DNA from: Bifidobacterium breve | Lineage (GTDB): Bacteria > Actinomycetota > Acidimicrobiia > Acidimicrobiales > Ilumatobacteraceae | Assembly: GCA_945886445.1 (NCBI GenBank) | Contig: CAMCZG010000017.1 | Location: forward strand, 1 to 33,983 | Direction: 5' to 3' | Length of the DNA: 33,983 bases | Shown: in pieces, positions 4,804 through 8,278 of the stretch | Layout of the letters: each line of letters begins with the position of its first letter | How positions within the stretch are numbered: the first letter of the stretch is position 1 | Notes under the pieces: model-generated | The model's input: only the letters and a program-made list of their open reading frames with translations | What the model was told of the DNA's origin: nothing | Databases searched by the model: none | Position numbers and translations under genes: made by a program

Positions 4804-5550
4804 TTATGACCCGAGTTTTTTCATGCGGTCAAGAACTTGCTCACTTGTTGGTGAGGTCACTTCATCAACTACTTTTCCGTCGGCAAGAAAAACTACGCGG
4901 TCGGCATACGCAGCAGCTACAGGGTCGTGGGTGACCATCACTATGGTTTGCCCAAGGTCGTTCACTGCGTGACGCATGAAGGAGAGAATCTCTGCACCGG
5001 AACGACTGTCGAGGTTGCCAGTTGGTTCATCGGCAAAAATAATTTTGGGACGACTAGCAAGTGCACGTGCAACGGCCACACGTTGCTGCTGTCCGCCAGA
5101 CAGTTCGCTGGGGCGGTGTGTAAGGCGCGACTCCAATTTCACTGCGCTCACTACTTCATTGAGCCACGCTTCATCTATATCAACGCCGCCAAGGTCGAGT
5201 GGCAACGTGATGTTCTCTAGTGCGGTGAGCGTAGGGATGAGGTTGTACGCCTGGAAAATAAAGCCCACTTGTTCACGGCGCAAAACGGTGAGTTCGCGGT
5301 CGTTCAGACCCGACAGATCGGTGCCATCAATGAACACTTTGCCCAAGGTGAGGGTGTCGAGACCTGCAAGGCAATGCATGAGCGTGCTCTTGCCAGACCC
5401 GCTTGGCCCCATGATGGCGGTGAACTGGCCCTCAGCAAAATCGACCGTGACGTCGTCGAGGGCACGTACCTCGCTGTCGTCTTTTCCGTATATTTTGGAG
5501 GCATTGAGCGCAGCGGCTGCTGCAACGAGAGTGGGGGTGGTGGAAGTCAT
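4804..5550 (-). CDS. ABC transporter ATP-binding protein (LolD/MacB type)
   Basis: A 248-residue ATPase that powers the FtsX-like permease encoded directly downstream. It has Walker A GPSGSGKST, the signature LSGGQQQR, Walker B IIFADEPTGNLD and the switch His in MVTHDP. The TGNLDSRSG continuation after Walker B is the hallmark of the LolD/MacB/FtsE branch, matching an FtsX-type partner. The start ATG at 5548-5550 begins MTSTTPTLVAAAAALNASK, before the first strand. The gene faces away from the CMD pair, so promoters for both directions must lie in the 13 bases between starts or inside the coding ends. Confidence 0.93.
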   Translation of the reverse strand: MTSTTPTLVAAAAALNASKIYGKDDSEVRALDDVTVDFAEGQFTAIMGPSGSGKSTLMHCLAGLDTLTLGKVFIDGTDLSGLNDRELTVLRREQVGFIFQAYNLIPTLTALENITLPLDLGGVDIDEAWLNEVVSAVKLESRLTHRPSELSGGQQQRVAVARALASRPKIIFADEPTGNLDSRSGAEILSFMRHAVNDLGQTIVMVTHDPVAAAYADRVVFLADGKVVDEVTSPTSEQVLDRMKKLGS

Positions 5551-5563
5551 CTAGGCTTGTCTA

Positions 5564-5980
5564 GTGGCAAATAATGAAGGTCGCAACTCATGGGTTAATG
5601 GTGCGTGGAATGCATCCGATATTGCCAGCGCCCAAACACATTTGGCCCCTTTCATCGACGAATTGCGAGGACAAGCTGCCCACACATCGCCGGGTCGCAC
5701 TGCGAGCCTCATTGAACTGCAAGTTGCTCAATTGCTTGGTTTAGAGCGTGAAGAAAGCGCCTTGGGCGAGAAAATGAAGAGTTGGTATTCCTCGCCCGAA
5801 TTTTCAGACGGCGAAAAAGCTATTTTAGAAATCACAGAACAGTTCGTGCTCGACGTGCACAGCGTGACCGACGAGCAATTTGAGAAGATGAGAAAGTATT
5901 TTTCTACTCCCGATATTTTGGCAATGCTTTTTCATGTTGCTCTATGTGATGGCTTTGGCAAATTGGAAAAGGTTGCCTGA
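5564..5980 (+). CDS. carboxymuconolactone decarboxylase-like protein without the redox cysteines
   Basis: A 138-residue all-helical CMD/AhpD-fold protein. Its C-terminal half (F-S-D-G-E-K-A-I-L-E-I through DGFGKLEKVA) aligns by eye with the same part of the protein encoded next (LPQRSKLALAF through HGFSKLLIV), including the paired E/Q-F, A-L and G-F/S-K-L positions. Where CMD proteins carry CxxC, this one has L-L-G-L-E-R-E-E-S; its only cysteine lies near the C-terminus (VALCDGF). It is therefore probably not a thiol oxidoreductase itself and may be a structural or regulatory partner. The start is GTG at 5564, with no clear ribosome-binding site. Its TGA overlaps the next ATG by one base (TGATG), so the two products are probably made together, perhaps as a hetero-oligomer. 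Confidence 0.72.
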   Translation: MANNEGRNSWVNGAWNASDIASAQTHLAPFIDELRGQAAHTSPGRTASLIELQVAQLLGLEREESALGEKMKSWYSSPEFSDGEKAILEITEQFVLDVHSVTDEQFEKMRKYFSTPDILAMLFHVALCDGFGKLEKVA

Positions 5981-6495
5981 TGTCGAGTACACCACGTCTT
6001 GACCCCGTTGACCCAATGGCACGTTCAGTGTTCGGTTCTATTCTTGGGCACCAACCTCAACTCGCAAAAGCATTTTCAACGTTGTACGCAGAATTTTGGC
6101 AACGTGGTGAACTCGACCACGTAACGAAGGAAACAACACGGTTACGTAACGCCCGCATTACCGATTGCGGTTATTGACGCAATGTGCGCTTCACGGTCGT
6201 GAAGCAAGAAAATATGGTTGAGAGTGACGTTGAAAAAGTTGAAGATGGCTACAACGACACCGACTTGCCACAACGCTCAAAACTTGCCTTAGCTTTTGCC
6301 GATGCATTTCTCGGTGCACAAGGTGCTCCGGACACCAACGTGCAAGACGAAATGAAAAAAGAGTTCACTACAGAACAAATTGCCGAAATGGGAATTGGGC
6401 TGGCGCTCTTTCATGGCTTTAGCAAGTTGCTCATTGTCTCTGGCTGCGAGCCTGAAGAGATGGAACGCACAGTGCTGAGTGCGCCAGGCGCTTAA
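5980..6495 (+). CDS. CMD/AhpD-like selenoprotein with C-G-Y-U motif (in-frame TGA read as selenocysteine)
   Basis: One 171-residue CMD-family protein if the TGA at 6175-6177 is read as selenocysteine, residue 66. Before it the reading is TKETTRLRNARITDCGY; after it, RNVRFTVVKQ and a stop-free 105-codon CMD tail. Relatives have T-D-C-x-F/Y-C-R-N-V-R here, so TGA replaces exactly the second redox cysteine. In AhpD the CxxC second cysteine attacks peroxide and a glutamate lies 12 residues before the first cysteine; here Glu-51 lies 12 before Cys-63. A 7-bp hairpin with GGUC loop follows 17 nt after the TGA. Likely role: thiol/selenol peroxidase or disulfide reductase in the cytoplasm. Selenocysteine machinery (SelA/B/C/D) is not in this window. 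The alternative is a recent nonsense mutation of a Cys codon. AhpD-like selenoproteins are known from environmental sequence. Confidence 0.82.
6188..6205 (+). promoter_or_regulatory. candidate bacterial SECIS hairpin
   Basis: GCTTCAC (6188-6194) pairs perfectly with GTGAAGC (6199-6205) around the loop GGTC (6195-6198). The loop begins 17 nt after the in-frame TGA at 6175-6177, inside the accepted range for bacterial selenocysteine insertion elements (about 16-37 nt), and has G in both of its first positions. The tetraloop GGUC is the same as the SelB-contact loop of the E. coli fdhF element; the bulged U of that element is not seen here. The hairpin lies in coding sequence (R-F-T-V-V-K), as bacterial SECIS elements do. 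Confidence 0.75.
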
Positions 6496-6499
6496 ATAA

Positions 6500-7093
6500 C
6501 TACCAACCGTTGTAGTGCACAACCTCGGAAACTTCTTTGCGCGACACGGGGCCTTCGGGGCCATCGGGGTAGCCAAGAGGAATAGTGGTGCCAATGTACA
6601 TTTCGTCGGGAATGTTCAAGATGGTGCGAATTTGTTTTTCTACCATTCCGTGCAATGTGGTGAAGGCTGCACCTAAACCAAGTGCGCGTGCCGCAACTAT
6701 GAGGTTTTGACTTGCCGCATATACCGCTGAATACATGAACGGTTCACGTGGGTTGTCGGCTGGATAAATATTGCGACCACAAACAAAAATAATGCATGGG
6801 AAATTTCCCATGTTCGCCCCGAGGTTCTGTGCACCTTTCAAGGTGCGCCGGTCGGTGTTGTTGCCGGGGTCGGGAAACTTGGAAACACGTTCGGCAAATG
6901 GCAGGAAGAGCTCGCCGAGTTGTTTGCGCACCGCGGCATCGGTGACCACAATGAAGTCCCAGCCCTGTGTGTTATTTGGGCTACTGGCGCGGGTGGCTGC
7001 CCATAAAACTTTTTCAATGAGTTCACTTGGCACCGGGTCGGGCTTGAAAAATCGCATTGCACGAGCGGTGTTCATTGCATCAAAGACGTCCAT
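6500..7093 (-). CDS. nitroreductase family protein
   Basis: A 197-residue FMN-dependent NAD(P)H oxidoreductase of the nitroreductase fold. It starts MDVFDAMNTARAMRFFKPDPVP, the usual N-terminal R-x-x-R-x-F flavin-phosphate motif, followed by ATRASSPNNTQGWDFIVV, which contacts FMN. The late segment ALGLGAAFTTLHGM and PLGYPDGPEGPVSRK, near the C-terminus, are also typical of the family. The ATG at 7091-7093 is chosen because the frame upstream (35 further codons) has no family resemblance and would run into the divergent adenylyltransferase promoter. It ends four bases from the convergent selenoprotein gene. The physiological substrate cannot be told. Confidence 0.88.
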   Translation of the reverse strand: MDVFDAMNTARAMRFFKPDPVPSELIEKVLWAATRASSPNNTQGWDFIVVTDAAVRKQLGELFLPFAERVSKFPDPGNNTDRRTLKGAQNLGANMGNFPCIIFVCGRNIYPADNPREPFMYSAVYAASQNLIVAARALGLGAAFTTLHGMVEKQIRTILNIPDEMYIGTTIPLGYPDGPEGPVSRKEVSEVVHYNGW

Positions 7094-7123
7094 GTGCTCT
7101 ATCGTTTCAAGTGGAGCACACCT

Positions 7124-7633
7124 ATGACGTATCGGACCGACCAACCCCGGCAACATTTCCCAACAGGGCTCATTGTCGGTCGCTTTCACCCGCCACATTT
7201 AGGGCATTCATGGTTTATTAACGCTGCTGCAGAGCAGTGTGATGCGCTGGTCGTTTTTGTCAACACTCGTGCAGGTGAACTGGTGCCTGGCTCATTGCGT
7301 GCAAGTTGGCTTGCCGAATTGCACCCCAACGTCACTGTGGTCGAAGTTGCTCATGAACTCGACACCAACTGGAACGACAACGAACTGTGGACCAAATGGA
7401 TCGCACTTTTCCGCAGCAAATGGCCACATGCGGCGGGGCCACACGCTGTGTTTTCATCTGACTCTTATGTATCGGAACTAGCCCATCGTTTAGAAGCGCA
7501 AGCAGTAGTGGTCGATGAAGATCGCATCAATGTTCCTATTAGTGCCACCCAAATACGCGAAACACCCCAGCAGTATCTCCACTTCCTTGCGCCACAGGTG
7601 CGCGAGTGGGTGGAGAAAAACCTACTGGGGTGA
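7124..7633 (+). CDS. nicotinamide-nucleotide adenylyltransferase (NadM/NadR-type)
   Basis: A 169-residue nucleotidyltransferase that probably joins NMN and ATP to form NAD. The T/HxGH signature appears as GRFHPPHLGH (about 19-28) and the second family motif ISxTxxR as ISATQIRE (about 140). Length and the GRFxPxHxGH style fit NadM or the NMNAT domain of NadR rather than NadD; there is no attached ribosylnicotinamide kinase domain. The ATG at 7124 is chosen because GTGGAG at 7111-7116 provides a good ribosome-binding site seven bases upstream; the upstream in-frame ATG at 7094 would overlap the divergent nitroreductase start. It would supply pyridine nucleotide to the many NAD(P)-dependent enzymes here. 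Confidence 0.85.
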   Translation: MTYRTDQPRQHFPTGLIVGRFHPPHLGHSWFINAAAEQCDALVVFVNTRAGELVPGSLRASWLAELHPNVTVVEVAHELDTNWNDNELWTKWIALFRSKWPHAAGPHAVFSSDSYVSELAHRLEAQAVVVDEDRINVPISATQIRETPQQYLHFLAPQVREWVEKNLLG

Positions 7634-7642
7634 CTCGTTAAA

Positions 7643-8278
7643 TTACTTCTTAGGTTGTGGCAAAACGCGCAAGTAAGGCTTGACGGTTGTCCAGCCTTGT
7701 GGGAAAAGTGTCTTTGCTTCTTCGTCAGAAACCACAGCACCGATGATGACGTCGTCGCCATCTTTCCAGTTAGCAGGAGTTGCCACTTTGAACTGCGCAG
7801 TCAATTGCAAAGAATCGATGACGCGCAACACTTCATCGAAGTTGCGACCAGTTGAAGCTGGGTAAGTGATGGTGAGCTTCACTTTTTTGTCGGGTCCAAT
7901 AACAAACACCGAACGCACGGTCATGGTGTCACTTGCATTGGGGTGAATCATGTCGTACAGGTCGCTTACCTTGCGCTCTGGGTCGCCAATCATTGGGAAG
8001 TTCACAGGTGTTCCTTGTGTTTCGCCAATGTCGCCTTCCCACTTCAGGTGCGATTCAACATTGTCAACAGACAAGCCGATGACTTTCACATTGCGCTTGT
8101 CGAACTCTGGTTTGATTTTTGCTACGTAACCAAGTTCAGTGGTGCACACTGGAGTGAAGTCTTTCGGGTGGCTAAAAAGTACGCCCCACGAAGTGCCAAG
8201 CCATTCATGAAAGTTGATGGTGCCTTGTGTGGTTTCTGCGGTGAAGTCGGGGGCGATATCGCCAAGTCGAAGTGCCAT
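7643..8278 (-). CDS. peroxiredoxin, 1-Cys (Prx6) type
   Basis: A 211-residue peroxiredoxin reducing hydroperoxides. The active site is HPKDFTPVCTTE, with peroxidatic Cys-45 in the PxxxT/SxxC motif and the conserved Arg in MTVRSVFVIGPD. The long C-terminal domain (ATPANWKDGDDVII and later) is typical of the Prx6 branch. Cys-45 is the only cysteine in the protein, so an outside thiol or selenol must resolve the sulfenic acid; the selenoprotein about 1.2 kb away and the thioredoxin at 33.4 kb are candidates, by inference only. AAAGGAGAACACC before the ATG at 8276-8278 is a strong ribosome-binding site. An IscR-like palindrome lies 55-81 bases upstream of the start. Confidence 0.93.
   Translation of the reverse strand: MALRLGDIAPDFTAETTQGTINFHEWLGTSWGVLFSHPKDFTPVCTTELGYVAKIKPEFDKRNVKVIGLSVDNVESHLKWEGDIGETQGTPVNFPMIGDPERKVSDLYDMIHPNASDTMTVRSVFVIGPDKKVKLTITYPASTGRNFDEVLRVIDSLQLTAQFKVATPANWKDGDDVIIGAVVSDEEAKTLFPQGWTTVKPYLRVLPQPKK

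Follow-up and report, generated by a model that had tools for sequence, protein, structure and literature searches.

CxxU selenoproteins of the AhpD-like and CMD-domain types were discovered in 2005 and rank with the most frequent selenoproteins of marine samples (PMC1088965, PMC2398784). The AhpD of Mycobacterium tuberculosis is reduced by lipoylated E2 together with dihydrolipoamide dehydrogenase (PMC8945050, PMC12028322) and in turn reduces AhpC (PMC12028322). Of the two AhpD domains of Sestrin, the N-terminal one has the catalytic Cys and the other is devoid of it; the CMD homodimer 2PRR is also reported to overlay on Sestrin (PMC4674687). It has been proposed for Sestrins that fusion came first and that one half diverged afterwards (PMC11429811).

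The locus considered here lies in a window of 33,983 nucleotides (the whole stretch of DNA analysed) from a freshwater actinobacterium. It comprises a selenoprotein gene and, directly upstream, a gene for a related protein. Since CxxU AhpD/CMD selenoproteins have been known from 2005 on, the selenoprotein as such is of a kind already described. What is added is a widespread subfamily that is named by no NCBIfam model and that gene finders would split.

Codon 66 of the selenoprotein gene

On the forward strand, the frame opened by the ATG at 5980 runs to a TAA ending at 6495 and is interrupted once, by the TGA at 6175-6177. Reading this codon as Sec yields TDCGYURNVRF within a 171-residue protein of predicted CMD/AhpD fold, whose CGYU motif consists of Cys-63 to Sec-66. 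The standard code leaves a 65-codon piece and a 103-residue open reading frame at 6184-6495, which is the splitting by standard gene finders that the original prediction anticipated; the frame itself, with its single TGA and its C-G-Y-U, is confirmed.

Glu-51, Cys-63, residue 66 and Arg-70 are all invariant in a 22-row alignment. The spacing that suggested an analogy with AhpD, Glu-51 being 12 residues N-terminal of Cys-63, is thus a property of the family. The full analogy does not stand, because the position of the AhpD catalytic histidine (His-137 in M. tuberculosis) is taken by Arg-70, in the Sec and Cys forms alike. An invariant Arg in place of His implies a proton relay unlike that of AhpD. 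The PF02627 score of the window selenoprotein, 22.6 bits, is marginally below the cut-off of 23, and some relatives score above it. The subfamily reaches no curated NCBIfam cut-off: those of NF041238, NF041047 and NF053654 are 110-310, while the window proteins, if they match, reach 17-22 bits. Compared with PDB sequences, the family profile retrieves solved AhpD/CMD proteins (PA0269 at E 6e-13), and the modelled Sec domain of a relative gives a fold match with Z 16.

A scan of GTDB genomes provided 80 homologous loci, which span Acidimicrobiia, Chloroflexota, Pseudomonadota (mostly Pseudomonadales) and Myxococcota, that is, four phyla, Actinomycetota among them. Codon 66 is TGA in 76 of them and TGC or TGT in 4, the Cys/TGA alternation proposed at the outset as a check, and the frame beyond the TGA is intact. 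On the tree, three changes are required to account for the Cys cases. Every congener with a full-length match retains both the TGA and the hairpin described below; none is a close strain with TGC or TGT and an unconserved hairpin, the pattern named beforehand as the mark of a broken gene. Two loci bear titles that look wrong: the genes of L045 (titled Acidobacteria) and L092 (titled Klebsiella pneumoniae) group with Ilumatobacteraceae-level relatives or uncultured Gammaproteobacteria.

The host genome (2.14 Mb, 93% complete) carries all four of the Sec genes that had been suggested for inspection. selA and selB are adjacent on contig 16, the tRNA-Sec gene (selC, anticodon UCA) is on contig 33 and selD on contig 28. 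Among relatives, SelA is found in 24 of 24 genomes with the TGA gene versus 146 of 199 overall (p 0.0003), and SelB in 23 of 24 versus 145 of 199 (p 0.003); uncorrected for kinship, these values are only a guide, as the 199 genomes are related. Desertimonas flava (L072, G018), which has a Cys version, still possesses selA and selB.

A SECIS-type hairpin of the bacterial kind occupies 6188-6205 on the same strand as the gene. Its 7-bp stem (6188-6194/6199-6205) encloses a GGTC loop (6195-6198) that begins 17 nt past the TGA, a position identical, on re-measurement, to that first reported. Bacterial SECIS elements are recognised as hairpins downstream of the UGA with a G among the first two nucleotides of the loop; both the GGTC loop at +17 and covariation across homologues agree with such an assignment. 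The stem occurs in two registers. Register 1, seen in the window's lineage and in a second Sec-CMD gene of the same genome, takes up columns 14-20/25-31 from the TGA, with GGTC or a variant as the loop. All of its cells (100%) are paired and 8 are compensatory, a count that no shuffle equalled; both sides have changed at 3 of the 7 pairs (e.g. C-G to G-C, G-C to A-U). Register 2, found in Pseudomonadota and in a fused Acidimicrobiia clade, is a different 7-bp stem lying 7 nt further downstream, with 98.8% paired cells and 29 compensatory ones, again above every shuffle. Both pairing signals are lost when the pairing positions are slid against each other, and neither 7-bp stem is complete in any of the four Cys genes. 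A model of the register-1 hairpin run on the genome picks out two clear sites, the 5980-6495 gene and a gene on contig 85.

The evidence for the hairpin is comparative, because the number of pairs in the window sequence taken by itself is ordinary when set against synonymous recodings (p 0.24) and shuffling of dinucleotides yields no more than z -1.0; the folding energy is unusual among those recodings (p 0.007). Under synonymous shuffling of 77 TGA genes, the folding energy of the segment has a mean z of -0.7. It is weak as a general SECIS test since the protein sequence itself favours pairing, and it was replaced by pair counts in a fixed register. Scanning 5500-6800 against Rfam gave a single chance-level match and none above the gathering score.

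Genetic code 4, with TGA as Trp, was considered and rejected: the codon alternates with Cys, never Trp, and TGA is a stop elsewhere, including in the neighbouring partner gene. That very stop (5978-5980) could be taken to favour a true stop at codon 66 as well, or else a nonsense mutation or sequencing error, any of which would leave a broken gene. Against this stand the recurrence of TGA at the same codon with an intact frame behind it, the conserved hairpin and the complete Sec machinery. The broken-gene reading is already refuted by these comparative data and its probability is close to nil. The alignments demonstrate Sec coding and the accompanying hairpin, and they confirm 5980-6495 as one gene for a putative CMD/AhpD-fold selenoprotein with Sec at the CxxC/U position.

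The upstream partner gene

Comparative data and machinery thus bear out the selenoprotein reading of the original prediction, which had overlooked the gene immediately upstream. This partner gene (5564-5980, forward strand, GTG start) specifies 138 amino acids with a predicted CMD fold but without CxxC/U, and its TGA stop overlaps the selenoprotein ATG by one base. The partner protein has no Pfam match above cut-off. Profile comparison aligns it with the Sec protein over nearly the full length (99.5% probability, E 2.6e-22); despite this match, the Cys pair is absent. The predicted structure (pLDDT 87.9) has the PA0269/AhpD fold with a TM of about 0.70. At the level of sequence, these comparisons show the first gene to be a paralogue that would have kept the CMD fold and has lost the Cys pair. 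On its other side, its start diverges from that of an ABC transporter ATPase gene (4804-5550, reverse strand) 13 bases away, leaving little promoter room.

In 71 of the 79 testable loci (one of the 80 being cut by a contig end), the gene immediately preceding on the same strand encodes a homologue of the partner. The gap between the two genes ranges from -11 to +93 nt and is exactly -1 in 28 loci. In 7 loci the partner is fused C-terminally to the Sec domain, and a single testable locus, L089, has none. The partner is not specific to Sec because all four Cys versions are accompanied by it too. These versions (L064, L072, L081, L094) keep the partner gene and lack the 7-bp stem.

The second Sec-CMD selenoprotein of the same genome (G000, contig 85) has its own pseudo-CMD partner just upstream (L122:1158-1712 and 1661-2107, both on the reverse strand). 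It bears a CKTU motif and a SECIS stem of GTTTGGC/GCCAAAC. A 218-residue protein without a Pfam match is encoded downstream of this pair. For the CMD gene on contig 12, which has an ordinary CxxC, no partner lies within the 2.6 kb examined. Taken together, the contig-85 pair and the unpaired contig-12 gene make the pairing look like a rule of the Sec-CMD group and not of CMD proteins generally. The conserved pairing and the partner's homology, shown here by comparison of putative gene products, lead to a testable rule, namely that Sec-CMD enzymes of this kind are accompanied by a degenerate CMD partner. Pairing with a pseudo-enzyme appears undescribed: no mention of it was found in the pertinent parts of selenoprotein papers and reviews, among them PMC1088965, PMC2398784 and PMC13188914, and a prior description is still possible.

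Fused relatives, neighbouring genes and a proposed mechanism

On the tree, the fused rows fall into one clade; rooting with paralogues was dropped, the branches being too long to trust. A natural fusion, that of Candidatus Microthrix UBA2517 (L091), was modelled from 33 sequences, with pLDDT 90.4 and pTM 0.89. An alignment of partners and fused protein in one MAFFT run was excluded from folding, because there the partners collapse onto the catalytic half. The best PDB match of the fusion model is human Sestrin2 (Z 23.4, rmsd 3.2, 263 residues aligned, covering both domains), well above single AhpD chains, whose Z is 16 at most. At the sequence level, none of the 7 fusions matches the Sestrin family (PF04636) at E<=10, and no such match was obtained among PDB sequences. 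The modelled likeness to Sestrin2 supports two CMD domains lying side by side; it would reflect a shared fold and is not proof of descent. Because homodimers pack in this manner, the pairing may be generic to any two CMD domains in AlphaFold.

Conserved next to the pair in the window's family are a nitroreductase-family gene (6500-7198) and a peroxiredoxin gene (7643-8278), both on the reverse strand; no E2/E3 genes adjoin the pair there. The nitroreductase, a neighbour conserved in close relatives, serves as context only. The peroxiredoxin, of the 1-Cys type with a Cys active site, is a neighbour in 10 Ilumatobacteraceae-level loci and might be a redox client. Lipoyl-E2/E3 genes adjoin the pair only in Chloroflexota. 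There, all nine loci (L053-L061) have the order lipoyl-E2 acyltransferase, dihydrolipoamide dehydrogenase, a 182-residue protein, partner, Sec-CMD; a Rieske oxygenase gene comes next in 8 of the 9. The product of the gene that separates dihydrolipoamide dehydrogenase from the partner, about 180 residues long (L060:2903-3451, and at the same place throughout L053-L061), is conserved and without a Pfam match.

The E2/E3 gene order in Chloroflexota, the known reduction of AhpD and the neighbours in the window's family speak for a peroxidase or peroxiredoxin reductase driven by lipoamide. We consider it quite probable that the two genes form a translationally coupled unit for a Sec peroxidase/reductase that draws on lipoamide and is joined by a pseudo-enzyme partner; here we infer the complex, the reductant and the substrate. 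The UGA would be decoded by SelB and tRNA-Sec at the downstream hairpin, giving a CxxU oxidoreductase of the AhpD/CMD fold. In this enzyme, Sec would be the attacking residue, acting on a hydroperoxide or on an oxidised protein partner (for example a peroxiredoxin), with Cys-63 resolving the selenenyl intermediate. The upstream gene product would most likely occupy the dimer position next to the catalytic subunit, as a pseudo-enzyme shaping or regulating the site. The probable electron source is lipoylated E2 with dihydrolipoamide dehydrogenase, which also serve M. tuberculosis AhpD. Judged separately, lipoamide as the reductant has about an even chance, and direct peroxide reduction by Sec-CMD slightly less. 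If complex and reductant hold true, environmental selenium use would be linked to lipoamide-driven peroxide defence.

It is possible, and somewhat doubtful, that the selenoprotein is a disulfide reductase or adaptor for peroxiredoxin, as AhpD is for AhpC (PMC12028322), and not itself a peroxidase acting on peroxides. The nearby peroxiredoxin genes in 10 loci and the E2/E3 operon of Chloroflexota are compatible with such a role; however, the peroxiredoxin gene lies on the opposite strand, its linkage is unseen outside the family, and a CxxU with Sec in the attacking position would also suit direct peroxide attack. A homo-oligomeric selenoprotein of the CMD/AhpD type acting alone, with the upstream gene a co-transcribed paralogue doing a separate job, is unlikely. 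The solved AhpD/CMD relatives that were found are single-gene products and L089 manages without a partner, but the 71 adjacent and 7 fused cases, the second pair in the same genome and the confident two-domain fusion model all argue against it. Slightly less probable still is the view of the pair as Sestrin's selenium-dependent counterpart in bacteria, made up of a catalytic AhpD subunit and a pseudo-catalytic sensor or regulator and fused once. Under that reading the halves would have specialised before fusion, because the genes are mostly two and were fused once. Divergence of one half does occur in unfused pairs, unlike the order proposed in PMC11429811. Side by side, the unfused and fused forms are a natural bacterial example of the Sestrin route of PMC11429811, except that the active site was lost in still-separate genes.

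Comparison with known systems

YciW and the YciW-related (seleno)proteins of NF053654 are AhpD-like and have weak profile similarity to both genes, the window proteins and partners scoring 17-24 bits against a cut-off of 310. PA0269-type AhpD (2ijc, 2o4d, 7xw1) is the closest solved relative of both proteins in sequence and fold; the pair differs from it, as PA0269-type AhpD itself has CxxC and a His at the AhpD position. In Sestrin2 the catalytic AhpD domain comes first and the AhpD domain after it lacks the Cys site (Sesn-A/Sesn-C); the fused model aligns over both. Its two-domain pseudo-dimer layout is encountered here in the fused relatives only, in a predicted model. Sestrin differs further in having no detectable sequence similarity, in using a single Cys and in its eukaryotic GATOR2 signalling.

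With M. tuberculosis AhpD, the selenoprotein shares the spacing of Glu and Cys-x-x-(Cys/Sec), and the lipoyl-E2/E3 genes neighbour the pair in Chloroflexota. The full AhpD set (Glu-118, Cys-130, Cys-133, His-137) is not present: Glu-51, Cys-63 and Sec-66 have their counterparts there, whereas Arg-70 stands for His. Sec in place of the second Cys and a separate non-catalytic partner set the pair apart from that enzyme. The CxxU AhpD-like/CMD selenoproteins of the Sargasso Sea, GOS and Geobacter (GSU3128) share the fold, the CxxU and the bacterial SECIS; a pseudo-CMD partner gene, unmentioned in the pertinent sections of those accounts (PMC1088965, PMC2398784, PMC13188914), is present here.
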